Origin: Propioniferax innocua
GTDB taxonomy: Bacteria > Actinomycetota > Actinomycetes > Propionibacteriales > Propionibacteriaceae
Assembly (NCBI RefSeq): GCF_006716235.1
Contig: NZ_VFOR01000002.1
Location: 310,001-374,000 of the forward strand
DNA: 64,000 nucleotides
Reading direction: 5' to 3'
Made by a program: the position numbers and the translations under genes. Position 1 is the stretch's first letter. Each line of letters starts with the position of its first letter. Below are positions 4,569-24,395 of this stretch, one piece after another. The notes under the pieces are model-generated. The model did not search any database and was not told the origin of the DNA. It saw nothing but the letters and a program-made list of their open reading frames with translations.

Positions 4569-4597
4569 ACACGCTGAAACAGACCTCCACCACGTTT
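4569..4597 (-). repeat. ychF-terminus repeat, copy 1 (degenerate)
   Basis: Leftmost recognisable copy. On the minus strand it reads Glu-Asn-Val-Val-Glu-Val-Cys-Phe-Ser-Val, matching the YchF ending with several substitutions and no stop codon after Val. The gene-free stretch 4477-4827 holds this copy, copy 2, and 140 bases between them in which I see no gene. Confidence 0.6.
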
Positions 4598-4737
4598 TCG
4601 ACACCGTTGAGCACCACGTGATCAAACAAGATCGCGCCGAAGCACTCGCGTGGGCCACCTACCCACGGTCGAGCAGGCCAACAAGCGCATCCCTCAAAGC
4701 AGACACCCGCATCTCGACGACCGACCCCAGATCAGTG

Positions 4738-4770
4738 CTACACGTTGAAACGGAACTCGACCGCATCCCC
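4738..4770 (-). repeat. ychF-terminus repeat, copy 2
   Basis: Reads Gly-Asp-Ala-Val-Glu-Phe-Arg-Phe-Asn-Val-stop on the minus strand, a near-perfect YchF C-terminus. It lies between gene-free DNA and the BrnT-like pair. The centre is GACC and the upstream half is native ychF-like rather than dyad-symmetric. Confidence 0.8.
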
Positions 4771-4827
4771 ACGGCTGGAACAGCCTGCGTCATTGAACCA
4801 GACATGACGGCAAGGTAACTTGGCCCC

Positions 4828-5055
4828 ATGGACGAGCCGATCATCGCCCAGTCAGCACTCAAGCATGGGCTGACCGAAGACGAGATCCTCCACGCGTACA
4901 GGAATCCGCTGCGAGCTTGGGATCTCGGGGAAGGATTCACGATGATCATCGGCCCAAACCACGCCGCTCTCATCCTCGAGGTCGGCTACATCCAGGGCTC
5001 CACCGCCGTCGTCATCGTCCACGCGATGCGAGCCCGCGAGAAGTTCCTGAGGTGA
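4828..5055 (+). CDS. BrnT-like putative toxin
   Basis: A 75-residue protein: an N-terminal helix (ALKHGLTEDEILHAYRNPL), then beta strands and the ending VIVHAMRAREKFLR. The His-Ala-Met-x2-Arg tail is characteristic of a compact actinobacterial family resembling BrnT/RelE-fold toxins. Its stop overlaps the start of the next gene by one base (TGATG), the usual toxin-antitoxin arrangement. Toxicity and RNase activity are inferred from fold resemblance and pairing only. The module lies between repeat copies 2 and 3. Confidence 0.65.
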   Translation: MDEPIIAQSALKHGLTEDEILHAYRNPLRAWDLGEGFTMIIGPNHAALILEVGYIQGSTAVVIVHAMRAREKFLR

Positions 5056-5330
5056 TGACCATGCCACGCACAGTCGAGGAGATCCTCGCTCACGCCGATG
5101 AGCTTGCCGCCCGGTTCGAGAACTACGAACCCGATGCCGAGCATGAACTCGACCCCTCGGCCATCCGCCAACTCAGGGACGCCGTGGTCGAACAGTCAAC
5201 AGCCGAACGCCATCTGCTCGAAGCCGTCAAGAACGCACGCGCTTCAGGAATGTCCTGGGCCAACATCGGCACCTTCGTCGGCACCTCCGGCGAAGCAGCC
5301 CGCCAGCGCTACGGCACTCGCGTCGCCTGA
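5055..5330 (+). CDS. Helix-turn-helix partner (putative antitoxin)
   Basis: A 91-residue protein with an acidic helical first half (EEILAHADELAARFENYEPDAEHELD) and a C-terminal helix-turn-helix MSWANIGTFVGTSGEAARQRYG. This pairing of a BrnT-like protein with a small HTH partner recurs in actinobacteria. It is translationally coupled to the upstream gene. An alternative ATG lies six bases downstream. The role as DNA-binding antitoxin and autoregulator is inferred. Confidence 0.65.
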   Translation: MTMPRTVEEILAHADELAARFENYEPDAEHELDPSAIRQLRDAVVEQSTAERHLLEAVKNARASGMSWANIGTFVGTSGEAARQRYGTRVA

Positions 5331-5376: not shown

Positions 5377-5409
5377 TCACACGTTGAAACAGAACTCCAC
5401 CACGTCACC
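5377..5409 (-). repeat. ychF-terminus repeat, copy 3
   Basis: The best native-type copy: the minus strand reads Gly-Asp-Val-Val-Glu-Phe-Cys-Phe-Asn-Val-stop. It shares with ychF itself the block GGTGACGTGGTGGAGTTC, so it preserves sequence on both sides of the presumed crossover. Confidence 0.85.
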
Positions 5410-5454
5410 GCGGCGATGACCACCTGTGGGCCACGGGAAACCCCATCCACCCAC

Positions 5455-6066
5455 TCAGGATTTCGACCAAACCAAGAGATAACGGAACAGCGGCAGCCGC
5501 CGGAACGCACACCCAGACAGAACGGCAGCCGCTTCCCGTCGAATCCATCTGTAGGTCGTGGGCACGTCGAAGCATTTTGGCGCAGAACCCTCGACATACC
5601 CGCAATAACGTGAATACCACCTGTGCTGCACTGCCCCAATAGCGTCATAGGCCCAGTCCATCGGAGTGCTGCTCTTCCCCAGACCGAGGACGACCAGCTT
5701 TCCGCCCGGAGTCACCAACTCAGTCAAGTGAGCCAGCGCGTCACCGAAATCTGGAAGATGATGGATCGACGCCACAGCTGTGACCAGATCGAACTGCTCC
5801 CCTTCAAGGCTGCCACCCAAAACATCACCTTGCACCCACGTCACATCACAGCCACGCTTTTGTGCCACCGCTAGCACGTCACCGTTCACGTCAAGTCCAG
5901 TCACCGAGAGCCCGCGGACACTGAGGGCCTCCGCCAACTCGCCCTCACCGCATCCAACATCCAATGCGGTCCGCATCGCAGGGTTAACCTGCTCCAGAAT
6001 CAGCTCCCGATAGTGCAGGTTATGGTTCCAGCCCTGCGAGCGGGAGGCCTGTCGCGGAGAACTCAC
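5455..6066 (-). CDS. Class I SAM-dependent methyltransferase
   Basis: A 203-residue UbiE/COQ5-like methyltransferase. Motif I is TALDVGCGEGELAEAL near residue 35, motif II VTGLDVNGD, and motif IV LVTAVASIHHLPD. The substrate cannot be read from sequence. The GTG start overlaps the higA stop (GTGA), so this enzyme is the third gene of a higB-higA-methyltransferase transcript and a passenger on a toxin-antitoxin module between repeat copies 3 and 4. Confidence 0.85.
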   Translation of the reverse strand: MSSPRQASRSQGWNHNLHYRELILEQVNPAMRTALDVGCGEGELAEALSVRGLSVTGLDVNGDVLAVAQKRGCDVTWVQGDVLGGSLEGEQFDLVTAVASIHHLPDFGDALAHLTELVTPGGKLVVLGLGKSSTPMDWAYDAIGAVQHRWYSRYCGYVEGSAPKCFDVPTTYRWIRREAAAVLSGCAFRRLPLFRYLLVWSKS

Positions 6067-6359
6067 GCGACGTGCAGCGGCTGGATCTTGTCGAGCTGAT
6101 CCCCGATCGCGTCACGCTCGACCTCAAGGTCGTAATGGGACTGCAAGTTGATCCAGAACTGGGCGCTCATGCCGAAGAAGCGTCCCAGCCGCAGAGCCGT
6201 GTCGGCGGTGATCCGCCGCATACCGTGCACGATCTCGTTGATCCGCCGCGGAGGCACGTCGATGGAAACCGCGAGCCTGTTCTGCGTGATACCCATTGGC
6301 TCCAGGAACTCTTCCATGAGGATCTCGCCAGGGTGGACCGGGGGCATCTTACCTTCCAC
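6063..6359 (-). CDS. higA: HigA-family antitoxin (first higBA module)
   Basis: Antitoxin and autorepressor of 98 residues with the XRE-type HTH of HigA: HPGEILMEEFLEPMGITQNRLA, then VPPRRINEIVHGMRRITADTALRLGRFFG and the tail AQFWINLQSHYDLE. I chose GTG at 6359 because a perfect AGGAGGT lies five bases upstream; the next candidate is ATG at 6347. It follows higB by ten bases, in the reversed toxin-first order usual for this family. Closely similar to the second HigA at 12172-12471. Confidence 0.92.
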   Translation of the reverse strand: MEGKMPPVHPGEILMEEFLEPMGITQNRLAVSIDVPPRRINEIVHGMRRITADTALRLGRFFGMSAQFWINLQSHYDLEVERDAIGDQLDKIQPLHVA

Positions 6360-6369
6360 GTCGCACCTC

Positions 6370-6651
6370 CTAGTGATAGTCGACGATCTCAACCTCGCCG
6401 GGACCCGCCGGGGTCCAGACGAAGCAAATCCGCCATTGATCATTGATTCTGATGCTGTGCTGGCCAGACCGGTCACCCTTGAGCGCCTCCAACCTGTTCC
6501 CAGGTGGGACACGCAATTCGTCTAGCTCGTGAACCGCGTCCAACAGCAGCAGCTTGATGAGCGCCTTCTTCTGGACTCGAGGGTCGAGCCGCTTCACCCG
6601 CTGCCGCAAGTAGAGCCGCTCGGCATCGCGATCACGGAAGGAGACGATCAC
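6370..6651 (-). CDS. higB: HigB-family mRNA-interferase toxin (first module)
   Basis: A 93-residue RelE-superfamily toxin that cleaves mRNA on the ribosome. Family hallmarks are visible: FRDRDAERLYLRQRV at the N-terminus, ELRVPPGNRLEALKGDR, and the active-site strand QHSIRINDQWRICFVW, ending in VEIVDYH. The GTG start lies 12 bases downstream of the palindrome at 6664-6678 and 17 bases after the ychF-like stop codon of repeat copy 4. Confidence 0.92.
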   Translation of the reverse strand: MIVSFRDRDAERLYLRQRVKRLDPRVQKKALIKLLLLDAVHELDELRVPPGNRLEALKGDRSGQHSIRINDQWRICFVWTPAGPGEVEIVDYH

Positions 6652-6663
6652 GCCAACACTCTA

Positions 6664-6678
6664 TAACGCTAGACGTTA
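6664..6678 (-). promoter_or_regulatory. Probable HigA operator, first module
   Basis: TAACG-CTAGA-CGTTA is a 5-bp inverted repeat with a 5-base spacer just upstream of higB. The same arms and spacing occur before the second higBA module (12797-12811), which strongly suggests the HigA binding site. It overlaps the stop-codon end of repeat copy 4. Confidence 0.65.
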
Positions 6679-6714
6679 AACCGGAACTCCACCGAGTTCC
6701 GATGGATACGGCCA
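6669..6714 (-). repeat. ychF-terminus repeat, copy 4 (symmetric type 1)
   Basis: Minus strand reads Arg-Asn-Ser-Val-Glu-Phe-Arg-Phe-Asn-Val-stop. The core is a perfect dyad: CGGAACTC (6682-6689), centre CACC, GAGTTCCG (6694-6701). The stretch to about 6714 (GATGGATACGGCC) is shared in looser form with copies 5 to 9, making the unit about 46 bp. Confidence 0.85.
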
Positions 6715-6777
6715 TGACGCGACGAACGCGAACAGGCCATACCCCAGAGGACCCCGCCTTGCCCCCATCCATCACCC

Positions 6778-6814: not shown

Positions 6815-7027
6815 ATGAGCACCATGACAGTGCGCATGAACGAGCAGGACGCTGAACTGGTCCGCAAGTTCGCCCAGTTCGAGGGCGTCACCATCTCCGA
6901 CTTCGCCCGCACCGCGATCCTGGAGAAGATCGAGGACTCCTACGACCTGCAGGAACTGCGCCAGGCGATCGCGCAGGACACCGGCGAGCGCTTCACCATC
7001 GACGAGATCCTCACCGAACTCGCCTGA
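6815..7027 (+). CDS. relB: RelB/DUF6290-type antitoxin
   Basis: A 70-residue antitoxin. The N-terminus MSTMTVRMNEQDAELVRKFA is a ribbon-helix-helix DNA-binding segment, followed by TISDFARTAILEKIED and an acidic C-terminal tail that would wrap the toxin. Strong ribosome site AGAGGAGG. It overlaps relE by one base (TGATG), so the two are co-translated. The module fills the 600-bp interval between repeat copies 4 and 5. Confidence 0.88.
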   Translation: MSTMTVRMNEQDAELVRKFAQFEGVTISDFARTAILEKIEDSYDLQELRQAIAQDTGERFTIDEILTELA

Positions 7028-7311
7028 TGGCCCCACAGACCAGCCCATACCGCGTCGAGCTGACCGCACGAGCACGCAAGCAGCTGAAGAAGATGGACCG
7101 GTTCGACGCCAGGATCCTCGCCACCTGGATCAAGAACAACCTCGACGGCTGTGCCGACCCGCGCGCCTTCGGCAAGGGGCTGGCCGCGAACCGCTCAGGC
7201 GAATGGCGCTACCGCGTGGGCTCCTACCGCATCCTCGCTCTCATCCACGACGACATCGTCACCATCGAGGTCTTCTCGATCGGTCGCCGCGACAAGGCCT
7301 ACGACGACTGA
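7027..7311 (+). CDS. relE: RelE/ParE-superfamily toxin
   Basis: A 94-residue RelE-type protein: YRVELTARARKQLKKMD, DARILATWIKNNLDGCADPRAFGKGL, then the catalytic strand GEWRYRVGSYRILALIHDDIVTIEVFSIGRR, with the Arg residues and final GRR-x-KAYDD typical of ribosome-dependent mRNA interferases. It ends ten bases before repeat copy 5, so the cassette boundary lies immediately behind the stop codon. Confidence 0.9.
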   Translation: MAPQTSPYRVELTARARKQLKKMDRFDARILATWIKNNLDGCADPRAFGKGLAANRSGEWRYRVGSYRILALIHDDIVTIEVFSIGRRDKAYDD

Positions 7312-7320: not shown

Positions 7321-7366
7321 CTACACGTTGAAGCGGAACTCCACCGAGTTTCGTTGGATAGAGCCA
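7321..7366 (-). repeat. ychF-terminus repeat, copy 5 (type 1)
   Basis: Minus strand reads Arg-Asn-Ser-Val-Glu-Phe-Arg-Phe-Asn-Val-stop. Arms CGGAACTC and GAGTTTCG flank CACC, one mismatch from perfect symmetry. Flank TTGGATAGAGCCA matches copy 4. Confidence 0.85.
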
Positions 7367-7506
7367 CCACCAATCCCCCACAGAAAGGCACGCCTTCTCT
7401 GGGAAATCCGAAGGGGGCAAGGATGAGCCACATGAGGCACTTGCCGCGATCGCCCGCCTGGTGCTGGTCAGGCCGCCTCTCAGGAAACCCGGCGGCAACC
7501 AAGGAA

Positions 7507-8109
7507 CTATCTCTGCGTTTCACATCTGGAGTGAATGGTTGACACTTCGGCTCGCATGATGTCGAGAGCCCATCCAGGATCCTCATCCGGCGAGCGATGC
7601 ACCAAATGGAATGCGATGCCATCGATGAGCGCGTGGAGTCGCTGAGCGGATGCGCGCATGTCCGTTGATTCACGAGAACAGCCCGACAGCAACTCGACCA
7701 AGCGGAGCATGACTTCCTGCAGCTGCCGATGAGCTTCGTCCTTGATTGCCACAAGTTCAGGCAGCGCCGCAGCCTCAGCTGCGAGCGCCAGGTCCACTTC
7801 CATCTCCGCCCGCGAGTCCGCGGACAACGGAAGCAACTGCTCAATGACGTTGAGGGCATACTGCTCTGGGTCATCCGTCGACGACACCGCGAGCACTCGC
7901 TCAGTCGCTCGTCGCAGCATCAGCTCAGAGGAGAACTGCATCAACTCGGCGCGGGTTGGGAATACGTGCCGGAGCGATCCAACCACCACCCCGGCTTGAT
8001 CAGCAACACTGCGAACCGACACGGCGGAGATGCCCCTATCCAAGATCACCTGCCACACCGCCTCGGCCAGCTGTTCCTTCCTCGCATCAACATCAAGCCG
8101 CCGGGCCAC
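7507..8109 (-). CDS. TetR/AcrR-family repressor
   Basis: About 200 residues. The N-terminal HTH is KEQLAEAVWQVILDRGISAVSVRSVADQAGVVVGSLRHVFPTRAELM (given as family pattern: helix, turn, recognition helix ending in the Phe of the TetR signature). The rest is a helical ligand domain. I take GTG at 8109; TTG at 8118 is the alternative. Divergent from the MmpS-like/GAP genes, with two near-identical palindromes in the gap, so it very likely represses both directions. Confidence 0.88.
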   Translation of the reverse strand: MARRLDVDARKEQLAEAVWQVILDRGISAVSVRSVADQAGVVVGSLRHVFPTRAELMQFSSELMLRRATERVLAVSSTDDPEQYALNVIEQLLPLSADSRAEMEVDLALAAEAAALPELVAIKDEAHRQLQEVMLRLVELLSGCSRESTDMRASAQRLHALIDGIAFHLVHRSPDEDPGWALDIMRAEVSTIHSRCETQR

Positions 8110-8119
8110 AAGCCACAAT

Positions 8120-8166
8120 CTAGCACGGTTGTGCTAGGTTCGCTTTGTAGCACACCTGTGCTACAA
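8120..8166. promoter_or_regulatory. Two tandem TetR-type operators
   Basis: First site CTAGCACGGTTGTGCTAG (8120-8137): 7-bp arms CTAGCAC/GTGCTAG with a 4-base spacer. Second site 8145-8166: 9-bp arms TTGTAGCAC/GTGCTACAA with spacer ACCT. Both share TAGCAC-N4-GTGCTA and lie eight bases apart between the divergent tetR and lipoprotein genes. Confidence 0.8.
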
Positions 8167-8179
8167 GGAAGGAGTCGGA

Positions 8180-8662
8180 ATGCCCGCAGCAGAGAAGCAG
8201 GCCCTCATAGCTTCTGCGCTCTTGGCCGTTGTGGTTGTCGCGCTGAGCGGATGCGGTGTCGTCCAGGACACGATCGACGGGATGACCGAGCCGAGCGCCA
8301 CCAGCCAGCCATCGAGACCGAGCCCACCCCGGCCCGAGGAAACGGACGGGCTCACCGTGACGATCACCGTGGAGAGCGACGCCGAGACCTCTGGCGAGCT
8401 GACTGTGGACGTTGACTCCCCTAGGGGCGGTCAGAGCCTTCGCAAGAAGTCCGTCCCCTTGCCCTTCAAGCGGGAATACACCGTGGCTACGGACTCAATG
8501 TTCCCGCTACGCGCCACACACGTCGAGGTCGTAGCCGACCCTGCCGCAAGCTACATCGAATGCAGCATCAGCACAGGCGGCCAAGTCGTCGCCAGCCACC
8601 GGGCCGAAGGAAGTTCAGCCACAGCCACGTGTGATCGCAGCCTGCGGCTCGGAGCATCGTGA
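8180..8662 (+). CDS. MmpS-like lipoprotein
   Basis: A 160-residue exported lipoprotein: signal segment ALIASALLAVVVVALSGC with lipobox LSGC, then a Pro/Ser-rich linker (PSATSQPSRPSPPRPEET) and a beta-rich domain. The domain pattern VPLPFKREYTV, FPLRATHVEVVADPAASYIECSI, GGQVVASHRAEG, ATC resembles the immunoglobulin-like domain of mycobacterial MmpS proteins, including the paired cysteines. Good ribosome site GGAAGGAG. It overlaps the next gene (GTGATG), forming a two-gene operon under the TetR operators. Confidence 0.7.
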   Translation: MPAAEKQALIASALLAVVVVALSGCGVVQDTIDGMTEPSATSQPSRPSPPRPEETDGLTVTITVESDAETSGELTVDVDSPRGGQSLRKKSVPLPFKREYTVATDSMFPLRATHVEVVADPAASYIECSISTGGQVVASHRAEGSSATATCDRSLRLGAS

Positions 8663-9396
8663 TGATTGAAACCTTCGGAACTCTCGCCATCCTCGCTCTC
8701 ATCGACTCAACCAGTTTCGGCACCCTCCTCATCCCAATCTGGCTGCTGATGACACCGGGGCGACTGCGAATCGGGCGCGTCCTGCTGTATCTGGGCGTTG
8801 TCGCCAGCACCTACTTCGTCATCGGTCTGGCGCTGATGTTCGGGACGAGTACGTTGCTCGCATCCCAGACTCACGTCCAGGACACCGAGGGTTTCCGCAT
8901 CGCACAACTCTCTACAGGGATCGTGTTGCTGATCATCAGCCAGCTCATGGACACGAAGAAGGCTCGCGCGAAGGCTGCCGAGCGCGCCGTTCATGAAGAC
9001 GGCAAGATCCTGACATGGCGCACTCGAATCATGGGAGGCGACGCATCGTCCGGCTCGATGACTACGCTGCTCGGGATAGCCTTCACCGCCGTCCTCATCG
9101 AAGCAGCAACAATGCTGCCTTATCTCGCGGGCATCGGCATCATCACCGTACAAGGCCCTGGCTGGCCCCTCGACGGGCTACTCCTGCTGGGGTATTGCCT
9201 TGCGATGACTCTTCCAGCTCTCCTCCTTTCTGGGGGAAGGCTTGTCGCTCACTCTGCACTTGAAATACCGTTGACAAGACTTGACAGCTGGCTCACAAGA
9301 AACGCACAGGCCACAACCGCGTGGGTCATCGGAGTCGTCGGCTTCATTCTCGCCGCACAAGCAGCCCATGGCCTCTGGTTCTCTGGCCCGAGGTGA
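8659..9396 (+). CDS. GAP/Sap-family membrane protein (LysE-like)
   Basis: A 245-residue membrane protein with about six hydrophobic segments, opening FGTLAILALIDSTSFGTLLIPIWLLM, the signature start of the GAP/Sap family known from mycobacterial glycopeptidolipid and sulfolipid export. A charged central loop (DTKKARAKAAERAVHEDGK) separates the two halves, as is usual there. The coupled MmpS-like lipoprotein upstream strengthens the parallel with mycobacterial mmpS-gap loci, but no mmpL is present. Starts at GTG 8659 or ATG 8662. Confidence 0.8.
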   Translation: MMIETFGTLAILALIDSTSFGTLLIPIWLLMTPGRLRIGRVLLYLGVVASTYFVIGLALMFGTSTLLASQTHVQDTEGFRIAQLSTGIVLLIISQLMDTKKARAKAAERAVHEDGKILTWRTRIMGGDASSGSMTTLLGIAFTAVLIEAATMLPYLAGIGIITVQGPGWPLDGLLLLGYCLAMTLPALLLSGGRLVAHSALEIPLTRLDSWLTRNAQATTAWVIGVVGFILAAQAAHGLWFSGPR

Positions 9397-9441: not shown

Positions 9442-9487
9442 CTATACGTTGAACCTGAGCTCGACCGAGTTCCGGCACGTAGAACCA
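9442..9487 (-). repeat. ychF-terminus repeat, copy 6 (hybrid type 2/1)
   Basis: Minus strand reads Arg-Asn-Ser-Val-Glu-Leu-Arg-Phe-Asn-Val-stop. Left arm CTGAGCTC is the type 2 variant and right arm GAGTTCCG is type 1, with centre GACC, so the two arms no longer match fully. It is the mirror image of the hybrid in copy 9. Confidence 0.85.
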
Positions 9488-9500
9488 TCTGCGCGATCGC

Positions 9501-10773
9501 TCAGACAGGCACAGGCGTCCAGAGCCGGTCGATGGGCATCACGTGCAACCGTTCCTCGTAGGTGTAGGAACGAGTACCGGTCGTCAACATGACGCCGCCG
9601 ATGAACCTTTCCCCCAGCAGGTCGCGAAGCTGCGCCAGCCCGCGGAAGTCCTTGCCCGGGGCCCGCTCGCTGGCCTTGACCTCGAACGCGACGACTCTGC
9701 CATCGTCGTACTCGACGACGAGGTCGACCTCAGCCCCGTCGCTCGTACGCCAGTGCCCGAGCGTGACGGGATCATCGAGCCAGGACGCCTGCTTGCGCAG
9801 CTCCCCGACGACGAAGGTCTCCAGCAGGTGCCCGAAGTCGGTGAGCGACGTCGGGTCGATGCCGGTGACCTTCTCCGGCGTGAGCCGGAGCAGTCGGGCA
9901 GCCAGCCCGGAGTCGACGACGTGGACTTTCGGCTTCGCGCTCACCCGCGAGCGGAGGCTCTTGCCCCACGCGGGGAGACGCACAGCCAGGAACAGGTCCT
10001 CGAGGAGCCGGAGATGGCTCTCCGTCGTCTCCCGGTTGGTCCCCACCTTCTCCGCCGTCGCTGCCACGTTCAACAGTTGACCGGCCTGCGCCGCGATGTG
10101 CCCCAAGAGGCCGGCCAACGCCTGACGCTCGCGGATCCTGCTGAGCTCGACGGCATCGCGCTCGACGGACGCTCGCACGAAGTCATCGAACCAGCGAGCT
10201 CTGGCTGAGACTGACCGACGCAGGGCGAGAGGCATCCCCCGGAGCACACGCGGTCGACATACTCGGGCCGCGTCGTTCTTGACGACGGGACAGCGCTGAC
10301 GACGGCGTCGGCATCACCCGCGAGCACTTCGAGCAGGTTCTCCCGCACTCCCCCGAGTTCCCCTTGGGAGAACGGCCAGATGACGAGCGAATGGAGTCGA
10401 CCTGTCAGCGCCTGTGCTGTCGCCGGCAGAGCGTCCTGCCTCGTCGAGCCCGTGATGATCGCCGTTCCCGGGAGGCTCCCCTCGCGGTTCAGTCGAGCCT
10501 TGAGCGCATCGAGGATGCCTGGCACCCACTGGTACTCATCGACGCAGATCGGGGCCCTGCACGCACCGAAGCGGCCAGGTTCCCCTGGATCGCCTCACGC
10601 ACTTCAACATCATCGAGGTCGATCACCGAGCCGCCTACTGCCTCAGCGAAGCCGCGGAGCACCGTCGATTTTCCCGCCGACCGTGGACCGTGCAGCGCGA
10701 TCACCGGCTCGGTGCGCACCTGTTCGGCCAACAGATCACTGACACGGCGGGGAACGAGGCCATCGAGCTGCAT
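9501..10773 (-). pseudogene. AAA ATPase with DUF4143 domain, two frameshifts
   Basis: Encodes the AAA_14-DUF4143 type of ATPase in three frames. The N-terminus (from ATG 10773) has Walker A ALHGPRSAGKSTVL and IDLDDVEVREAIQGN. A one-base loss in a GGGCCCC run near 10558 shifts to the frame with ICVDEYQWVPGILDALKARLNREG and TAIITGSTRQD. A second one-base loss in a G5 run near 10237 shifts to the frame with MPLALRRSVSARARWFDDFV and the DUF4143 nuclease-like end LLETFVVGELRKQ and GAEVDLVVEYDDGRVVAFEVKAS. Adding one base at each run restores a protein of about 423 residues. Either decay or sequencing error. Confidence 0.85.
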
Positions 10774-11017: not shown

Positions 11018-11063
11018 TCAGACATTGAACCTGAATTCCACCGGGTTCAGGTGGGTACGTACA
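11018..11063 (-). repeat. ychF-terminus repeat, copy 7 (symmetric type 2)
   Basis: Minus strand reads Leu-Asn-Pro-Val-Glu-Phe-Arg-Phe-Asn-Val-stop. Arms CTGAATTC and GGGTTCAG flank CACC. Compared with type 1 the G-C pair in the arm has become T-A on both sides. A second inverted repeat, CAGGTTCA/TGAACCTG (11013-11033), overlaps its left edge. Confidence 0.85.
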
Positions 11064-11101
11064 TCACGGGTTCAGGGACTTACCAGCCTCTCGCCCCGAG
11101 G

Positions 11102-12076: not shown

Positions 12077-12171
12077 GCCGGCAGCCTTGCATGACGATGC
12101 CTGCCAACGCGATACCGCTCTCGCGTTGCGCGAGCCGACGACAGGAAGCGAAGGGGCGCCCAGTGACGCCA

Positions 12172-12471: not shown

Positions 12472-12479
12472 GGTGCACC

Positions 12480-12796: not shown

Positions 12797-12811
12797 TAAC
12801 GCTATACGTTA
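12797..12811 (-). promoter_or_regulatory. Probable HigA operator, second module
   Basis: TAACG-CTATA-CGTTA has the same arms and spacing as the element before the first higB (6664-6678). Conservation between two modules whose surroundings otherwise differ supports a protein-binding role. It overlaps repeat copy 8. Confidence 0.65.
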
Positions 12812-12850
12812 AATCGTAATTTTAGCCGCATTTCGGTGAATAAAGCCATC
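12802..12850 (-). repeat. ychF-terminus repeat, copy 8 (AT-shifted)
   Basis: Minus strand still ends Leu-Lys-Leu-Arg-Phe-Asn-Val-stop, but the core has drifted to CGTAATTT/GCATTTCG around TAGC. It is distinctly richer in A/T than the other copies. The drift may reflect use as the higBA promoter. Confidence 0.7.
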
Positions 12851-12882
12851 GGTGGGCGACGCAGGCCGACGCTGCGGGGCAG

Positions 12883-14491: not shown

Positions 14492-14493
14492 GT

Positions 14494-16706: not shown

Positions 16707-16930
16707 CAGGTGACAGTGGTTAGTCACGCAGCCTGAATAGCTGGCGTGGTCATGATTGTCTCGAACTCGAGCTGGACCCCCGACCAAGCCACGAGTGCCC
16801 CCATTCTTTAGGGCGTTGTCCCACGTCAGGTCCTATTTCCCTGTCGAAGCGGTGTGAGGGGTAGAGGAGCTCGTTGAGCGTGTAATGGTCAAAGGCGGTG
16901 AAGCCCTCTACTCCGACGGCGACACCGCGA

Positions 16931-18133
16931 TCAAGCTTTGGCACGCCCAGCCGACAACATGAGCCGGTTTGCGTAGCCGATGAGACTGGTGACCAACATG
17001 AGAACCTGGATGCAGTTGCGCTTACTGAACTGACGCGAGGAGACGCCATGCACGCTCGCATGGCGCGAGTAGTAGTTCGGCACCTTGTCGCCCTTGTGCT
17101 TCCAGAACTGCTCGTGGGCGTTCCAGATCGGCAGCCAGACCATCGCCTCGTGGACACCCATCTCGTCGATGGCGGCCGGCACGTCCGCGCCCTTCTTCCG
17201 ATTCGTGATGAGGCGTCGGGCGGCCTGGTCGGGGTAGAAGCGGTAGATGAGCGTGTCGAGCGTGACGGTGAACATCGCCTGGGCCGAGCGGAAGTGTCCA
17301 GAACGCATCGCGCCGAGCCCGTCGAGTACGAACTTCAGCTCGTCGCCGACTACGTCGCGGTTCGCCTGCTCAAGAACGGTAGCGCAGTCGTCGGTGATCG
17401 ACTCGTAACAGTCACCCAGCACCCGCCGACGGCCCGAGCGGTCCTGTGCCCGGAGCAGGCGGAGCACTGTGCGGCCGCGAGGCACCAGGTAGAGCGGGAT
17501 GCCCTCCTGCTCGAGGAACTCATGCACTTGATAGGCCTTGATCTCGTCTGCGTGGCTCCTCAGATTAGGCGGGAGGAGCGCCCGGTTGAACCCGCGCAGC
17601 ATCTGCGGGTCGAAGAGCGGCTTCAGGGAGCCGCGCAGCCCCTCGAGCATCGCGGCCTGCTGGCTCGCGATCTGCTTGAGCATCGGCTCGATCGCTGGGC
17701 TGACTCCGACGCCCTTCAGCGTCGGAAAGTCGATCATCGGCCCCGTGAACGTCGGTAGGCTCGCCACGATCGACGCCACCTGCGACTTGACCCGCTCGTT
17801 GTACGGCTCGAGCGCATTCTTGACCAGCGCGTCGTAGTCAGGCAGCGCCGACTTCATCTGCTCCTGGAGGCGCCGGTTCAACGGCCCCATGATGTCCCGC
17901 GCGTACGCCGAGGGGTCCGGGAGCATCGCCTTCATCTGCTCTCGGATAGGCGCGAGCATGTTGGCAACGGTGACGTCGATGTTGGGCATCAAAGACTGCG
18001 CGAACCTTGGCGACAGTCGAAGCCTCACCCCGTCGTCCGCAGCAGAGTCTCCGTCTTGCTCGCTCTCCGAGTTGCGTTCCCTCTCTTGGGCGGGCTCGAG
18101 ATCGTCCTCACGGTCATCGTCGTCGCGTGTCAT
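16931..18133 (-). CDS. HEPN-motif protein associated with type I restriction locus
   Basis: A 400-residue soluble protein. Residues 1-35 are acidic and disordered. A long helical part follows (ALPDYDALVKNALEPYNERV and similar). The C-terminal third is predicted helical and ends KVPNYYSRHASVHGVSSRQF then CIQVLMLVTSLIGYANRLML. R357-x4-H362 (RHASVH) followed by Gly fits HEPN ribonuclease motifs of abortive-infection type proteins. It lies 85 bases behind hsdR on the same strand, so it is likely part of the restriction operon. Ribonuclease-based back-up defence is an inference. No family name can be given confidently. Confidence 0.75.
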   Translation of the reverse strand: MTRDDDDREDDLEPAQERERNSESEQDGDSAADDGVRLRLSPRFAQSLMPNIDVTVANMLAPIREQMKAMLPDPSAYARDIMGPLNRRLQEQMKSALPDYDALVKNALEPYNERVKSQVASIVASLPTFTGPMIDFPTLKGVGVSPAIEPMLKQIASQQAAMLEGLRGSLKPLFDPQMLRGFNRALLPPNLRSHADEIKAYQVHEFLEQEGIPLYLVPRGRTVLRLLRAQDRSGRRRVLGDCYESITDDCATVLEQANRDVVGDELKFVLDGLGAMRSGHFRSAQAMFTVTLDTLIYRFYPDQAARRLITNRKKGADVPAAIDEMGVHEAMVWLPIWNAHEQFWKHKGDKVPNYYSRHASVHGVSSRQFSKRNCIQVLMLVTSLIGYANRLMLSAGRAKA

Positions 18134-18218
18134 CGCACTCTCCTGGTCGCCACGCTCGCTCGAACCGACGTTGCATCATCGAGACCGTTGTCGGCACTTT
18201 CGGAAACTCTTGTGCGTT

Positions 18219-21200
18219 TCACGTCGCTGAGTCGGTGACACCCAGTTGTGCGGCCACTTGAGAGGCGAAGGTCGGATCGACGTGGATGCGGGCGACGACG
18301 TCGTCAGCGATCTTGTCCACATCAAGAGGCCCGTCTGGGCCGTCGTACTCCACCGACTGCGCGGGCCACTGGAAATCGACCCGCGGGGTGTAGGCGCTCT
18401 CTCCGTCGTCGCCGTAGGCGGTGAGGACATGATCAAAGACAAGTCGCACCTTCGAGGAGAAGATGTCAAGTGTGTAGGGTGTCTCGGGCAGCTCTTGGTC
18501 TAGGACTCGTCGGATCGTGCTGTCGACGTCATTCATCACGTCGACCTTTCGTCGCCAGTCTTGGACTAGTTTGTCGTGGAGATGTTCCAGCAGCTTCTTC
18601 GCGCTGGCCTTCACCGTGTCACGCTCGTCGTCGGTGAGCACAGGATCGGGCTGGGTCAGCAGATCGAAGAGTGCTAGCTCTTCCTCGGTCATCCCCTCAC
18701 GAGCCGACCGTTCCTCCTCCTTGGTCAGGTTCTGCGACAGCTCGATCAAGCGTCGCAGGTACTCGTCGATGTTCACGCTGCCGGAGTTGTAGTCGTCGAT
18801 CAGCTGCTCGATCCGCTCGACGAGTTCGTACCGGGTGGGGTTACGGGTCGCCGAGACGATGGCCTGCTGGCGGAGCAGTTGCGCCAGCCGGTCCGTCTCG
18901 GCTCGCTTACGACCAGCGAACTTGGTCGCGAGGCCCTCGAAGTCGATCAAAGACAGATCGATCAGCGGGTCTGGCTTGGTGCCTTCGGCAGCGGCGCGAA
19001 TGACGTACTCCTCGGCACCCACTGACCGGTCAAGCAGGGCGTCCACCGCATCCGCCACCGTCCCGAGGTCGGCCTCGGGTGGCCGCGTGACTTCGGAGAT
19101 GCGTTCGGCGAGAACACGTATTGCTGCCACGTTGCGCTGCTGGCCTGCTGCGCTCGGATCTGGCAGGAGGGCCTTGAAGAGTTTTCGGATCTGCCGTGCC
19201 TTCTGTTGGAAGTCGTTGCGGATCTCTTCATCCACCAGGAGCGCCTCGACTGCAGCATCGCGTTTGGCGACATGGTCGAATCCCTCCGCATCCCTCATCG
19301 TCGCGAGATCGACTCCGACACTGGAGCAGAAGGTGAACAAGTCGGCCACAGCTGCATCCAGCTCACCCGCGAGTGCATCGATGATCTCGATGGGCGACTC
19401 GACGGCGTTCGCGGCACCGTAGATCGCCAGGGCCTTCTCCAGGTTTCGGAAAACGCCGACGTAGTCAACGATCAGGCCATTGTCCTTCTCCGGGAATACG
19501 CGGTTCGCACGGGCGATCGTCTGCATCAACGTGTGGTTGCGCATCGGGCGATCGAGATAGATCGTCGAGACACTCGGCGCGTCAAAACCGGTCATCCACA
19601 TCGCGCAGACAAACACCAGTCGCAGCGGGTCCTCGGCGTCCTTGAACTTCTCCGCTAAGTCCTCGCGGTTCATCCGCTCACGGTGCGGCCGAATGTCCAG
19701 CCCGAGGTCGTCGAGCATCTTCAACTCGTTCTGGCTCTGCGAGACGACCACAGCCATGTCGGTGGTCTCCATGAGCTCGATCCGCGAGGCGAGCCATGGC
19801 CGCTCAAGCTCCGGTAGTGCGTCGTGCTCGGCTTTCAATGCCGCCAAGTGCTCGCCCCAGGCCTCCTGGACGAGGTTGTACATGCGGACGGCAGCAGCCT
19901 TGTCGAGCCCGACGTACATTGCTTTACCACTGAACCCGCGCCCTACGAAGTGTGCGACAAGGTCCCTGGCAAGCGTCTTCAATCGCTCCGGGCGGGTGAG
20001 CAACGTGTACTGCGTGCCGAAGTCACGGGCCAACTGGCCTTCTGCGTCCTCGTCGAGCTCAGCATCCTCGAGAATAGCCTCGAGTTCGTCGGAGAAGTTT
20101 TCGTTGGTGAGCTGAAGTTCGGGAATGCGGTTCTCATAATAGAGCGGGACCGTCGCGCCATCTTCAATGGCATCACGGAAGTTATAGACGCTGACGTAAT
20201 TACCAAACTGCTCGCGCGTCACCTGCTCTTCACCCTCGATCAGCGGGGTGCCGGTGAAGCCCATCATCGACGCGTTCGGCAGCGCCGTGCGCATGTTCAG
20301 CGCGAGAGTGTCGTACTGACTGCGGTGCGCTTCATCGGTGATCACGATAACGTCGGAGCGGGTCGAGAGCACCGGCATCTGCCGCTCCCCCAGTGCCTTG
20401 GACGGCTGGAACTTCTGGATGAGTGTGAATACGTAACGGTGATCGGCTGCAAGCAATTCACGCAGGTGGGCGACGGACTGCGCGTGCACCCGGGCCTCTG
20501 GCGAGATAGCTCCGGCGTCGGCGAACTCACCATGCAGCTGAGTATCCAGTTCCGTGCGGTCGGTGACCATGACGAATGTCCAATTGCCCGGTACTTGGCG
20601 CAGCACCTTCTGCGTGAACCACAGCATCGACAGCGATTTTCCGGAGCCCTGAGTGTGCCAGAATACCCCGAGGCGCTTATCCTGGTCGGCCCGGGCCCGA
20701 TGCAGATTCTCGATCGCCGCGTTGACACCGAGGAATTGGTGAGATCGCGCGAGCACCTTGATCAGACCACCAGGCCGCTCCATGTACGCGACGAAGTTCT
20801 CCAGCAGGTCAAGCAGGACGGACGGATCGCAGGTACCTCGAAGCGCAGTCTCCAGAGCGACCACACCGCGGGTGCCGTGGGCGTCGATGACCTTCCAGTC
20901 GTTGAAGAACTCCCACGGCGCGTAAGTTGACCCGACCTTCGCCTGGCTTCCATTGGACAGCAGCACGAAGCAGTTAGGGATGAATAGCTGCGGAATCGTG
21001 TCTCGGTAGTCGGTCAGGTTGTCGTCGTAGGCCGCCTTGACCGACTCGTTGGGCTCCTTGAATTCCATCAGCACCAGCGGTACCCCGTTGACGAACAGCG
21101 CCAGATCCAGCCGCCGGCTGTGCAGGTTGCCCTTGACCCACATCTGCTGAACCGCCAAGAAGTCATTGTTCGATGAATCCTTGAAGTCGAGGAACCGTAA

Positions 21201-21551
21201 GGCCTCCATCTGCTTCACGCCCTGGTCGTCAACCCACTCCGCCAGATAGCCGTCACGCAGCAGATCATAGACTTCCCGATTGGCGCGGACGGGGTCCATG
21301 GCCGATCGGTCCTTGGTGAGGACCTCAACGGCCTCATCGATCGAGGTATCGGGCACATACTCGGGGTTGAGCTTGCGCATAGCAAGCCGCAGCCGGTGAA
21401 CGAGCACGGCATCGCGTTGGGAGTCGCGCCCCAGGCTGCCCCCGGGTCCCAGGATCTCCTGGAAGGCGTCGACTGGAGTCCAGCCGAGCTCCACCAGAAG
21501 CTCGATGCTCGGCTTCTCGACGTACCAGTACTCCGGGCCCGTGGGAGTCAT
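18219..21551 (-). CDS. hsdR: Type I restriction endonuclease subunit R
   Basis: Motor and nuclease subunit, 1110 residues, full length. The N-terminal PD-(D/E)xK nuclease is visible as RRLDLALFVNGVPLVLMEFKEP (Asp149, Glu163, Lys165). The SF2 helicase follows with Walker A HTQGSGKS (302-306), DEAH box ITDEAHRSQYD (406-409), TGTPL, and motif VI-like MRNHTLMQTIARANR. It translocates DNA and cuts remote from unmethylated target sites in complex with HsdM and HsdS. The start overlaps the hsdS stop by four bases, so M-S-R are translated as one unit. Confidence 0.96.
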   Translation of the reverse strand: MTPTGPEYWYVEKPSIELLVELGWTPVDAFQEILGPGGSLGRDSQRDAVLVHRLRLAMRKLNPEYVPDTSIDEAVEVLTKDRSAMDPVRANREVYDLLRDGYLAEWVDDQGVKQMEALRFLDFKDSSNNDFLAVQQMWVKGNLHSRRLDLALFVNGVPLVLMEFKEPNESVKAAYDDNLTDYRDTIPQLFIPNCFVLLSNGSQAKVGSTYAPWEFFNDWKVIDAHGTRGVVALETALRGTCDPSVLLDLLENFVAYMERPGGLIKVLARSHQFLGVNAAIENLHRARADQDKRLGVFWHTQGSGKSLSMLWFTQKVLRQVPGNWTFVMVTDRTELDTQLHGEFADAGAISPEARVHAQSVAHLRELLAADHRYVFTLIQKFQPSKALGERQMPVLSTRSDVIVITDEAHRSQYDTLALNMRTALPNASMMGFTGTPLIEGEEQVTREQFGNYVSVYNFRDAIEDGATVPLYYENRIPELQLTNENFSDELEAILEDAELDEDAEGQLARDFGTQYTLLTRPERLKTLARDLVAHFVGRGFSGKAMYVGLDKAAAVRMYNLVQEAWGEHLAALKAEHDALPELERPWLASRIELMETTDMAVVVSQSQNELKMLDDLGLDIRPHRERMNREDLAEKFKDAEDPLRLVFVCAMWMTGFDAPSVSTIYLDRPMRNHTLMQTIARANRVFPEKDNGLIVDYVGVFRNLEKALAIYGAANAVESPIEIIDALAGELDAAVADLFTFCSSVGVDLATMRDAEGFDHVAKRDAAVEALLVDEEIRNDFQQKARQIRKLFKALLPDPSAAGQQRNVAAIRVLAERISEVTRPPEADLGTVADAVDALLDRSVGAEEYVIRAAAEGTKPDPLIDLSLIDFEGLATKFAGRKRAETDRLAQLLRQQAIVSATRNPTRYELVERIEQLIDDYNSGSVNIDEYLRRLIELSQNLTKEEERSAREGMTEEELALFDLLTQPDPVLTDDERDTVKASAKKLLEHLHDKLVQDWRRKVDVMNDVDSTIRRVLDQELPETPYTLDIFSSKVRLVFDHVLTAYGDDGESAYTPRVDFQWPAQSVEYDGPDGPLDVDKIADDVVARIHVDPTFASQVAAQLGVTDSAT

Positions 21552-22801
21552 TCCGCCACCTGCCTCGCGACCAACGCATCAAGATCTAGCGTCGAGATAT
21601 CGATCTGTCCTGTGACCAGCTTCGGCAGTAGGAGATCTCGGAGCGCGGCGAGACGGGAGCACTCATTGCGCAGCCTCCAGCTCAGATCGTGCATTGGAGA
21701 CACCTTGTCAGCAAACGCCGCGTCGACGGCGACATCGGGGACGACAATCGGAGCTTCCTCAAAGTCCTTCGCTCGAACCGCGGGATACGCCGACCCGGTT
21801 GCACGCCCGACGAGCCAGTCTGAGAACGCTGTCGCCGATGATGTCTCGAAGAGGAAATCCGGTGAGACCGTCGATGGGGTCAGCACCGCCAACCCAGTCG
21901 ATGCGATCCAGTCGCTATCGGGAGCAACGAGCAGAGCGTGCGCTCTACGGTTGGGCCGCACGGTTGCCCATACAGTGTCGCCAGGGCTCACAACTCGACG
22001 AGCCCTGCCGGGTGCACTCGAGCCGCCAATAGCCTCCAGCTCGCCGATGTGGCGCTCCGAGAGAGCCGAGATATCGAGGTATCGGAATACCTCGTCACCA
22101 CCTGGTTTACGAGAAGAGCCATTAACTGTGGCGATGGCGGCAAGGGGTTGGACCTCCCATCCATCGGGTATCAGGCCGAGGGCCGAGTCGACCATGGGCA
22201 CGCCCTCGTGGCCGGGGTAACGGAACTTCACGAACCACTCGCGGTAGATGGCCCGCGCCATCTTCTCCAGCACCTCGATCCGCCGCCGGTTGTTCTCGAT
22301 CAATTCGTCGATGGAACGAAGGATCGCTCCGATGCGTTGCTGAGTCGCCAGGGCAGGGACGGCCAGCTTGAAGGGTTTGATCAGTTGCTGACTCAGATTC
22401 TGCTGAGCGGCACCATGCGCGTTCCCGACGAGGCGCTCGCGGGCACCCGCAAGCGCGTAGTAGAGGAAGCGAGCGTCCGCCTCTTTGGGGTCGGTGACCA
22501 TCGCGCAGATAGCCTGATTGACGGTCGCTTCGACGCCCAGCCAGCCCAGCTGGCCCACGTTTGCCCCGTACATGGCCAACAGTACGGTGTCGGGTGGAAG
22601 CAGTTTTGCGGAGGATCTCTCGAGTCCGGCCTCAGAGATGTGCTCCTCGGTCGTAGCGATCCGTGCCCCAATCAACTCCTGCGACTTGACCCAGGGAATA
22701 CCTTCATCGGTATAGTAGTCGGCTCGCTTGCGACTGGGAGTCCCGCCACTGGTCACTCGAGAACACAGTGCCTCGACTGCTACCTCACGCCACTCGCTCA
22801 T
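21548..22801 (-). CDS. hsdS: Type I restriction specificity subunit S
   Basis: Specificity subunit of 417 residues that chooses the bipartite DNA target for both methylation and cutting. Two target-recognition domains are visible: the first ends LAVPALATQQRIGAILRSID followed by the conserved helix ENNRRRIEVLEKMARAIYREWF, and the second starts GLIPDGWEVQPLAAIATVNG and ends in a helix with LRNECSRLAALRDLLLPKLV. The variable domains set the target, which cannot be read from sequence. Coupled to hsdM upstream and hsdR downstream by ATGA-type overlaps. Confidence 0.95.
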   Translation of the reverse strand: MSEWREVAVEALCSRVTSGGTPSRKRADYYTDEGIPWVKSQELIGARIATTEEHISEAGLERSSAKLLPPDTVLLAMYGANVGQLGWLGVEATVNQAICAMVTDPKEADARFLYYALAGARERLVGNAHGAAQQNLSQQLIKPFKLAVPALATQQRIGAILRSIDELIENNRRRIEVLEKMARAIYREWFVKFRYPGHEGVPMVDSALGLIPDGWEVQPLAAIATVNGSSRKPGGDEVFRYLDISALSERHIGELEAIGGSSAPGRARRVVSPGDTVWATVRPNRRAHALLVAPDSDWIASTGLAVLTPSTVSPDFLFETSSATAFSDWLVGRATGSAYPAVRAKDFEEAPIVVPDVAVDAAFADKVSPMHDLSWRLRNECSRLAALRDLLLPKLVTGQIDISTLDLDALVARQVAE

Positions 22802-24348
22802 ACTTCGAGGATCCCTTGAACTGCCGCGTCGACTTTGGTTCGCAGCACGTCGGCCTCGTCACTTAGCGTGGTGAACTCCTCGTACAACGCAGCGAGATCG
22901 CCCATGAAATCGACATCGCTCTCGTCGACGGCGGCAGTGCCGGTATAGCGGCCCGGATTAAGGCTCCAACCTTGGGCTTCGACCTCAGCTCGAGTGGCGA
23001 CCTTGCACAGGCCACCGACGTCGACGTACCTCCCGTCGGGGAAGTTCTCGGCAACGAGGTCGGCGCTGCCATCGACTGTCTGTACGTCCTCGCCACGGTA
23101 GAGCCGGACGATATTGGCCAGGAACTCGATCTGCTCGGGCGTAAAGTCACGGTGGGCACGATCGATCTGGTGGAAGATGTGCCGGGCGTCGATAAACAAC
23201 ACTGTGTCCTCGCGCGGTGTCCCTCCCTTGGCCTTGTCGAGGAACCACAGCGTCACCGGCAAGGTGACGGTGTAGAAAAAGTTGGGGCTGATGGCGACCA
23301 TAACGTCGACGGCTCCCGACTCGATCAACTGCTTGCGGATGTCCTTCTCTGAGTGGCCCGCGTCTCCGGCCGAGTTGGCCATGACGAAGCCTGCTCGACC
23401 CTTCGGTGAGAGTGCCGCGTAGAACTGCTGGATCCACAGGAAGTTGCCGTTGTCGACTTTCGGCAACCCGAACGGGAATCGCTTGTCGCCAGCGAGCTGA
23501 TCCTTCTTGATCTTGTCGACGTTGAACGGCGGGTTGGCCATCACATAGTCGAAGGCGCCAACCGCGCTATGCGGGTTCTCGTAATAGCTGTTGGCTTGGC
23601 GGATATCCCCTGAGAGCCCGTGCAGCGCGAGGTTCATCTTGGCCAGCGGGACGGTGTCCTCGGTCTTCTCCGTCCCGAAGACAGAGAGCTGGCGGCTGGC
23701 CGACTCGTGATGACGCTCGACGAACTTCGCACACTGGACGAACATGCCACCCGAGCCACATGCTGGATCGAAAACGCGGCCGTGGAATGGCTGCAGGACC
23801 TCGACGATGAGTCGGACGATGGAGTACGGCGTGAAATACTCGCCGCCACCCCTGCCCTCCTGTGCGGCGAAGTTGGAGAGGAAGTCCTCATAGATGAAGC
23901 CGAAGGCATCGCCCGCGAGCTGGGTGGGCAGCGGCGCAAAGAGCCGAAGCAACTCGATCAGCGTCGAACGCTCAAGCTTCTGGTAGCCGCGGGGCAGGAT
24001 GTCCTTGAGCTCCGGATTGGCCTCCTCGATGGCCTTGATCGCATCGTCGGTGGCTTTACCGACGTCATCACCCTCGGGAAGATCGACCAGGCTGGACAGC
24101 CGTGACTCGTCGGGGACGTACAGCACCGATTTTGCCTTGTAGTCCGCGACCGTCGCGGGGTTACGTGCGCTGGAGTTGGCCTCAACCTCTTCGCGGACGG
24201 TCTCGAAACGGTTCTCGGCGTACGCGAGGAACACCAAGCCGAGGACTGGGTCGCGATACTGGACAGGCGTCAGCTTGGAGTTCGCGCGCAACTCGTCCGC
24301 GGCGCTCCACAGCGTCGCGCGAACCTTGGCAAGATCAGTTGTCTTCAT
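22798..24348 (-). CDS. hsdM: Type I DNA adenine methyltransferase subunit M
   Basis: N6-adenine methyltransferase, 516 residues: N-terminal helical domain (LWSAADELRANSKLTPVQYR), SAM motif DPACGSGGM (194-202), catalytic NPPF (272-275). It protects host DNA and anchors HsdS/HsdR. Its ATG at 24348 overlaps the stop codon of ychF by four bases, with the ribosome site GGGAGTAAG inside the altered ychF tail. Expression therefore depends at least partly on ychF transcription and translation. No separate promoter is visible in the overlap. Confidence 0.96.
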   Translation of the reverse strand: MKTTDLAKVRATLWSAADELRANSKLTPVQYRDPVLGLVFLAYAENRFETVREEVEANSSARNPATVADYKAKSVLYVPDESRLSSLVDLPEGDDVGKATDDAIKAIEEANPELKDILPRGYQKLERSTLIELLRLFAPLPTQLAGDAFGFIYEDFLSNFAAQEGRGGGEYFTPYSIVRLIVEVLQPFHGRVFDPACGSGGMFVQCAKFVERHHESASRQLSVFGTEKTEDTVPLAKMNLALHGLSGDIRQANSYYENPHSAVGAFDYVMANPPFNVDKIKKDQLAGDKRFPFGLPKVDNGNFLWIQQFYAALSPKGRAGFVMANSAGDAGHSEKDIRKQLIESGAVDVMVAISPNFFYTVTLPVTLWFLDKAKGGTPREDTVLFIDARHIFHQIDRAHRDFTPEQIEFLANIVRLYRGEDVQTVDGSADLVAENFPDGRYVDVGGLCKVATRAEVEAQGWSLNPGRYTGTAAVDESDVDFMGDLAALYEEFTTLSDEADVLRTKVDAAVQGILEV

Positions 24349-24395
24349 TTCTTACTCCCAGACGTAAGCCCCGTCCGGAACTCCACCACGTCACC
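24345..24395 (-). repeat. ychF terminus itself: repeat copy 12, insertion junction
   Basis: The ychF coding end reads Gly-Asp-Val-Val-Glu-Phe-Arg, then Thr-Gly-Leu-Thr-Ser-Gly-Ser-Lys-Lys-stop instead of the Phe-Asn-Val ending known for the family and present in nine upstream copies. The switch falls right after CGG of the core arm, which marks the junction between chromosomal ychF and inserted DNA. Confidence 0.85.

Follow-up and report, generated by a model that had tools for sequence, protein, structure and literature searches.

Integrons hold arrays of small cassettes, often toxin-antitoxin genes, between recombination sites, and to our knowledge small-cassette arrays were previously known mainly from such tyrosine-recombinase systems. 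Staphylococcal cassette chromosome (SCC) elements carry type I restriction-modification (RM) systems and polymerase-like genes as cargo, and the integrase of the integrative and conjugative element (ICE) ICESt1 is a tyrosine recombinase. Among actinomycete integrative and conjugative elements (AICEs), serine recombinases have been described in 19 of 144 (PMC3218068), and tandem enterococcal cassette chromosomes (ECCs) with several ccrAB are described as "not observed directly" (PMC6222049). Here we analysed a stretch of 64,000 nucleotides from Propioniferax innocua (contig NZ_VFOR01000002.1, positions 310,001 to 374,000; hereafter the window), in which the 3' end of ychF is followed by a stack of gene cassettes separated by copies of its last codons. 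Comparison with related genomes suggests, with a probability of about 0.83, that this array is an accretion island at the ychF 3' end, built by a family of large serine recombinases (LSRs).

The initial annotation had counted eleven repeats of the ychF end, all oriented like ychF, and a check of the window sequence bears this out: all eleven places are present, on the minus strand. Outside the copies at 15189, 12802 and 4567, five of the eight read VEFRFNV followed by a stop codon, and the other three differ by one residue (VEFCFNV, VELRFNV and VEFRFNN). The copies at 12802 and 4567 are degenerate; the former reads LKLRFNV-stop and, judged by eye, has an extra base in its core. At 15189 the copy reads VEFR-SGFTTGGKK-stop, and its stop overlaps the start of a gene for 232 amino acids (aa). 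This is the type of tail found in ychF itself (24345-25436, minus strand), whose end had been mistaken for a twelfth copy: it has no FNV-stop and carries a ..TSGGKK-stop type of tail, with the stop overlapping the start of hsdM. The claim that ten of the eleven intervals each hold a complete unit was also too strong, as the 171-bp interval 4569-4738 is empty, a DUF4143 ATPase is split among three frames, and in 12883-13554 the second small gene is split between two. Upstream of the core, a stretch of about 25 bp that is not ychF sequence is conserved and common to the copies; the consensus of 106 sites other than those at ychF is .....gcagA.Gtt..tacg.gcCGgaACGtGGTGGAGTTCCGgTTCAACGTcTag. In the following, B denotes the half-site on the ychF side, B' the VEFRFNV-stop end of ychF, and P and P' the element ends, of which P' encodes the new tail (..TSGGKK-stop).

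Where the strands would be exchanged can be read from two genomes of one genus, G109 with a free ychF and G114 with an occupied one. As far as the site, the two sequences agree (92% over the end of ychF); there G114 continues with a 13.8-kb LSR element and then rejoins G109 at the site for 59 bp. On sequence comparison the exchange falls in a GT dinucleotide, because the attB of G109 (..tagt followed by GGAATTCC), the attL of G114 (..tagt followed by CGAGTTCC) and its attR (..ccgt followed by GGAATTCC) switch there. The core G and the core T are each present in 171 of the 174 sites of our first list. When read backwards, P matches P' as a dyad, at 15-19/24 in six pairings (G080, G118, G074, G036, G072 and G000), compared with 7-10 for the B/B' arms. 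These six pairings and the empty/occupied pair show the layout of an LSR-type attP, with inverted half-sites of about 25 bp, a distinct attB and a 2-bp crossover.

The key to the mechanism, overlooked in the initial annotation, is an LSR remnant at 15313-16712. Compared by tblastn with an intact relative of 518 aa (G026), it retains residues 74-129 and 117-430 in two frames, and the rest, including the N-terminal part, is missing. It is the sole PF07508 match in the genome, and the array there is probably frozen until another element arrives, since the only LSR found is broken. In other Propionibacteriaceae, and more widely across Actinomycetota, intact relatives of it lie at ychF. In the family survey, which used one genome per species (198 genomes; LSR relatives called at E 1e-15), 13 genomes including that of the window carry an LSR relative, 11 of them within about 11 kb of ychF; the exceptions are G076 and a fragment in G069. 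Eleven LSR genes are intact (459-579 aa) and share an invariant S18, presumably the catalytic serine; both intact LSRs tested contain PF00239 (Resolvase) and PF07508 (Recombinase). In a scan of named genomes, 79 of the best 80 of 120 loci are actinobacterial and one is, by its title, an Armatimonadota metagenome-assembled genome; ychF is present in 47 of these 80 and a VEFR-type site in 65 (counted by hand), the site not always lying beside the LSR. Five LSR genes start 45-46 nt past the ychF crossover, and three, on the opposite strand, start at a distance of 23-43 nt from the P end.

The elements that carry these recombinases are varied. That of G026 encodes ArdA, a probable DNA polymerase and two proteins that match below the family cut-offs, one NikA-like (Pfam) and one an HTH_17 protein similar to excisionases (NCBIfam); the latter is a candidate recombination directionality factor. 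The G036 element encodes an FtsK-like protein. The gene of about 1000 aa in the LSR elements (L093:1282-4290, G026 and relatives) belongs to no Pfam family and matches a PHROGs DNA polymerase at 1.8e-7. Its predicted structure has a mean pLDDT of 43, and matches in the PDB are weak (E 0.57 and above). We take motifs in this protein to be those of B-family DNA polymerases, and the LSR element may replicate after excision. An origin from a sequenced phage or plasmid was considered and rejected (45 phage records, each below 60% identity, and 2 plasmid records). A 5.4-kb element (L231:9931-15330, also in L251 and L237) contains an LSR, a lactococcin-972-like gene and an ABC transporter, the latter two below NCBIfam cut-offs, and is 98-99% alike in Actinotignum and two Corynebacterium. 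Secondary insertion sites probably occur, because in L251 roughly 2.5 kb separate the end of ychF from the start of this element and the L237 DNA examined contains no ychF.

How the sites are distributed was surveyed in 77 ychF-downstream regions from 75 genomes (1.32 Mb). Forty came from 57 relatives irrespective of copies and 36 were picked after copies or an LSR had come to light (G057 and G061 being comparisons), plus the window; 20 further regions were used solely for the comparison of empty sites and C-termini and for codon training. Under a looser rule, 174 sites share the strand of ychF, 4 are on the opposite strand and the reversed control yields 0. Two of the 77 regions are without any site, and extra copies are present in 11 of the 40 regions chosen irrespective of them. 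Curation removed six of the 174 as coding look-alikes and added 19 (18 of 39 new position weight matrix matches, picked by eye, and the 12802 copy), giving 187 sites that bound 112 segments with a median of 1840 bp. With the first site of each region excluded, predicted genes contain 3 of 112 sites; 200 random placements gave a mean of 75.3 and a minimum of 62. The automatic classes are B.B' 46, B.P' 26, P.B' 91, P.P' 14 and other 10; seven of the 14 P.P' sites have a recognisable tail, and the remaining seven, six of which read through and one of which has a short tail (VEFRHS), were not counted as P.P'. Across 67 array copies, codon positions 1, 2 and 3 show 1049, 426 and 5021 differences, as if the copies had evolved as coding ychF ends.

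At the level of the family, the degenerate VEFRFNV-stop codon pattern matches 128 of the 198 genomes (reversed control 0 in every row listed). Among the matches listed, exact copies outside the window genome occupy 145 rows, with ychF placed for 135 and unplaced for 10. Of those 135, 76 are the end of ychF itself, 49 lie downstream of it on its strand at distances of up to 28 kb (33 genomes) and 10 are on other contigs; none lies on the wrong strand or elsewhere on the ychF contig. At least 33 of the genomes searched, besides that of the window, therefore have an exact copy downstream of ychF, and exact copies keep to this locus instead of being equally common far from it. As far as one genome per species can show, neither pattern named by the initial annotation as speaking against it was seen, be it repeats just as common away from ychF or the same modules in relatives with no repeats at their borders. 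In the order the pattern is matched in 255 of 293 genomes, some with clustered copies (four in 6 kb in G039), and in an even sample of the phylum (396 genomes searched) 2-4 copies lie within 6.1 kb on one strand in 7 of 66 other matching genomes, where ychF was not located.

A P' tail (..TSGGKK-stop and variants) alters the YchF C-terminus. An automatic rule gives 24 B.P' sites, 23 at ychF and one within the G100 array, and in 14 of the 24 a predicted gene starts no more than 60 nt from the new stop, in 4 overlapping it. This suggests expression from the ychF transcript, because the genes start close to or overlap the new ychF stop. A second ychF end with a B half (ctacgtcatggccgacgggga) lies 2.1 kb downstream in L160 near 17422 (G154) and 9.8 kb downstream in L139 near 9608 (G100), and it appears from these two that B-type left halves can also be displaced.

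Movement of the cassettes is indicated by the way homology begins and ends. Of 250 high-scoring segment pairs (HSPs) between different genomes, the start lies no more than 40 bp from a site in both partners in 74 and the end in 16 (1.6 and 1.2 on average for 20 sets of random sites); 12 run across a site, compared with 70.5 at random. A 2.5-kb cassette is found in three states in three genera: behind an LSR element (G026), at the right end of an element (G155; 99.7% over 2534 bp, left core missing) and directly at ychF (G067; 96%, with an insert). Its right half-site is almost identical in all three, next to three different right neighbours. G079 and G080, of one genus (98% identity over 302 bp at ychF and 83% in the chromosome past the array), have cassettes in common; the order of these differs, and their half-sites have swapped partners at the core. 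In G080, two of the pieces in common have no recognised site between them. Cassettes come with a B' of their own on the left and a P on the right. Outside the window, the motif that defines the HigBA-type left end is present 23 times, in 19 genomes, and a TTT codon for Phe at the B' end goes with the HigBA-type cassette (19/22 vs 12/97, p 3e-11), also at ychF's own ends (4/6 vs 4/36, p 0.008). On this codon evidence, the HigBA-type cassette brings its own ychF codons. The labels for ychF and internal sites used in the left-end motif analysis and in the rank analysis below miss three ychF ends (G009, G100 and G154); the Phe-codon test used another rule. Finally, the 9.2-kb ychF-proximal element of the window is probably an internal deletion form of a G026-type element, as it matches the 19-kb G026 element at both ends, at the sites, with internal gaps.

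A series of canonical reactions could produce these arrangements. The circle of an LSR element with attP (P.P') would integrate at the B.B' site of ychF by exchange within GT, leaving ychF-B.P', the element and then P.B', with P' encoding a replacement tail for ychF. A passenger cassette would have B' with the native tail VEFRFNV-stop at its left end and P at its right end, and at ychF it would leave attB intact; the array could keep growing because a cassette beside ychF regenerates attB. Later the element might excise on its own by attL x proximal attR, in which case attB would be restored and the cassettes would stay behind, or by attL x distal attR, taking neighbouring cassettes along. LSR elements would in this way deliver and collect cassettes, by accretion and cis-mobilisation, through canonical serine-integrase reactions only, and the excision steps proposed need just the serine integrase and recombination directionality factor (RDF) reactions as described (PMC3783163). 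Such excision, alone or with cassettes, would explain why inner junctions are mostly P.B'. One may go further and see a serine-recombinase counterpart of the integron, in which gene-sized cassettes (B' left, P right) carry the last codons of the host gene, each insertion repairs host gene and attachment site, and a ychF-specific LSR clade shuffles and spreads them in actinobacteria. This wider proposal is tentative, and we would give it slightly less than an even chance.

The predominance of P.B' among the internal junctions (91 automatic, vs seven P.P' with a recognisable tail) could also be read as a sign of free cassettes, which an LSR acting in trans would excise as P.B' circles and insert at ychF B.B' in the manner of an integron. 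The differing order of common cassettes in G079 and G080 would suit such a process, and for one integrative and mobilisable element (IME) with a serine recombinase, integration and excision in the absence of an RDF have been reported (PMC5704250). Serine integrases normally recombine only attP x attB, or attL x attR with an RDF (PMC3783163), and the G155 and G026 states of the 2.5-kb cassette fit carriage with an element, which makes free cassettes possible but rather unlikely. It is less probable still, and in our view improbable, that the arrays are old debris resembling cis-mobilisable elements (CIMEs), with present variation arising from homologous recombination or transformation between strains and not from an LSR. 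LSR and cargo are indeed broken in the window, and most regions have no relative of the window LSR. Against such debris, homology stops at the short site in unlike contexts and different genera, half-sites swap partners at the core in G079/G080, and cassette identities of 96-99.7% across genera suggest recent movement.

Two further explanations have very little to recommend them. The gene-by-gene granularity and the single orientation of the sites would be expected of a tyrosine-recombinase integron or a dif-like (Xer) cassette system. LSR genes, on the contrary, abut the sites, and no tyrosine recombinase, IntI included, appears among the 30 window open reading frames (ORFs) covered by the Pfam scan (attC structures were not searched for); we regard this origin as highly improbable. 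Least probable of all is chance or plain tandem duplication of the ychF 3' end. Only the short end of ychF is repeated, and G154 does have a duplicated ychF end with both sides, but the conserved left half is not ychF sequence, the strand bias is 174 vs 4, and sites avoid genes.

Several points weigh against an LSR-built accretion island. The whole case is comparative, and neither excision nor integration was observed; moreover, the cognate LSR of the window genome is broken, and an LSR relative is present in only 12 of the 77 regions (other LSR types were not sought). As 37 of these regions, window included, were picked with copies or an LSR already in view, figures from the 77 are not prevalences. 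G109 and G114 are different species, and from 59 bp downstream G109 has a further 1.46 kb absent from G114 before the match resumes. The attP symmetry is weak, 4-13/24, in 8 of 14 pairings (G026, G114, G162, G011, G155, G068, G110 and G085), because an end has been replaced or the pairing is wrong. HSPs are not independent, with the HigBA cassette family giving many pairs, and the conserved site itself favours alignment ends there. A 20-base pattern with one mismatch allowed matched six array sites and also two places on another contig of the same genome (C1:304379-304398 and C1:1233939-1233958). Site quality shows no decay with rank (n=66), rho being 0.08 (p 0.54) for the right half and 0.20 (p 0.11) for the left. 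The absence of site decay with rank, together with the cassette order differing between G079 and G080, leaves the proposal of the initial annotation that the newest cassette lies next to ychF without support. Its central idea, a ychF-targeted insertion system that accumulates addiction and defence cassettes with SCC-like logic and integron-like granularity, fares better: the LSR family at ychF, the base-exact empty/occupied pair and the cassette ends common across genera all support it. What stands of the earlier interpretation as a whole is the insertion system; the newest-first order, the twelfth copy and the completeness of all units do not.

In the window, ychF (Pfam YchF-GTPase_C) owes its C-terminus to the adjoining element, at a B.P' junction with its GT crossover at 24385-24386. 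This 9.2-kb element (15189-24386, minus strand) comprises, all on the minus strand, a type I RM system, a 400-aa gene and the LSR remnant: hsdM (22798-24348; N6_Mtase), with a start codon overlapping the new ychF stop, hsdS (21548-22801; Methylase_S), hsdR (18219-21551; HSDR_N, SWI2_SNF2), the gene for a 400-aa protein that matched no Pfam or NCBIfam family (16931-18133) and the broken LSR (Pfam Recombinase). Beyond the P.P' junction at 15189-15257, which like all junctions lies on the minus strand, follow the 232-aa zinc-ribbon protein (14494-15192, minus; Zn_Ribbon_1), a junction with the B'-type end VEFRFNN-stop (14459-14509), a cassette for a cytidine-deaminase/ASCH protein (13719-14462, plus; Pfam) and a P.B' junction with VEFRFNV-stop (13599-13649). 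The two-gene cassette at 12883-13554 (minus) encodes 109 aa and a split relative of a 111-aa protein; their homologues are adjacent in G100. Past the degenerate junction at 12802-12852, a HigB-like toxin (12480-12764), a helix-turn-helix (HTH) antitoxin-like gene (12172-12471) and an epimerase-like gene occupy 11102-12764 (minus; Pfam), up to a P.B' junction at 11018-11068. The DUF4143 ATPase (9501-10773, minus; Pfam) matches an intact cassette of G019 (91% DNA identity over 1.4 kb, same right end) and is bounded by a P.B' junction at 9442-9492.

The distal half of the array holds, between P.B' junctions at 7321-7371, 6669-6719, 5377-5427 and 4738-4788, units of similar scale. A cassette at 7507-9396, to which no single strand is assigned, contains an SfLAP/GAP transporter (8659-9396, plus) and genes of 160 aa and about 200 aa (Pfam and gene calls); a DUF6290 antitoxin-like gene and a ParE toxin come next (6815-7311, plus; Pfam), and the junction after them has the dyad CGGAACTC-GGTG-GAGTTCCG. 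A HigB-like toxin, an HTH antitoxin-like gene and a methyltransferase (5455-6651, minus; Pfam) precede two small genes of 75 and 91 aa (4828-5330, plus; gene calls), for the first of which the Pfam scan gave no family, the second having been scanned only as the longer ORF 4917-5330. The empty interval and a degenerate junction (4567-4617) close the array. The two HigBA cassettes within it (6063-6651 and 12172-12764) have diverged, with 78% and 75% identity over two matched stretches. Just past the distal end, at 139-2572, low-molecular-weight phosphatase, SBF-type transporter and methyltransferase genes stand in a row (Pfam), resembling an arsenic-resistance cluster. Outside the window, we surveyed the cargo in 200 cassette genes (two sets of 100, from segments up to 6 kb). 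Among the matches listed are HTH_3 (21), PIN (9) and HigB (8), DUF4143 five times in the first set (PADLOC PDC-S01), and GNAT, Fic, AbiEii, an oligonucleotide cyclase and a type III methyltransferase.

Arrays comparable to those of integrons appear here to be the work of a serine recombinase, at the gene for a conserved GTPase. A search between VEFRFNV sites downstream of ychF could serve as a finder for new toxin-antitoxin and defence genes, and the elements are a source of natural site-specific LSRs with identifiable attB and core. Relatives with such sites are widespread in actinobacteria, judging by the best 80 of 120 loci. The collection and delivery of integrase-less cassettes becomes a testable question. 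In the literature, with subscription papers and preprints mostly not covered, we found no report of ychF cassette arrays or of ychF-linked serine recombinase arrays. ychF occurs 0 times in the main text of an LSR survey (PMC10083194), as do "GTPase" and "GTP-binding" in that of the AICE study (PMC3218068), and a pneumococcal prophage beside ychF lies upstream of the gene with 14-bp repeats (PMC6375853).

Of known systems, SCC/ECC islands and ICE/CIME accretion come nearest to the ychF array. The ychF elements are like AICEs and IMEs with serine recombinases in combining an LSR, an excisionase-like protein and a gene that is either NikA-like (below cut-off) or FtsK-like, and differ by their additional passenger array. 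In ICE/CIME systems of the ICESt1 type, integrase-less units keep attL/attR and are stacked with, and carried by, an active element (PMC5704250). The ychF array resembles them in its integrase-less units between sites of a relative's integrase (112 segments, with an LSR relative in 12 of the 77 regions), and the three states of the 2.5-kb cassette would fit carriage by an element here too; it differs by its serine recombinase, its many gene-sized units and its attB-restoring B' ends. It resembles integrons as an array of small cassettes between recombination sites, but its sites are LSR-type half-sites and its target is the end of a core gene. SCC and ECC elements likewise have a large serine recombinase, insert at the 3' end of a core gene with att sites in the form of direct repeats, and vary in cargo (PMC6222049), an arrangement that the ychF sequences reproduce. 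The array has another target (ychF instead of the 3' end of rlmH), another core (GGTGGAGTTCCG instead of the TATCATAA type at rlmH) and mostly gene-sized units, and five intact LSRs score 18-84 bits against the NCBIfam models for CcrA, CcrB and CcrC (CcrB 55-84, CcrA and CcrC lower), for which the cut-offs are 700-900. The system works like SCC/ECC, yet its recombinases are not Ccr and its target differs; by its recombinase it is not an integron.

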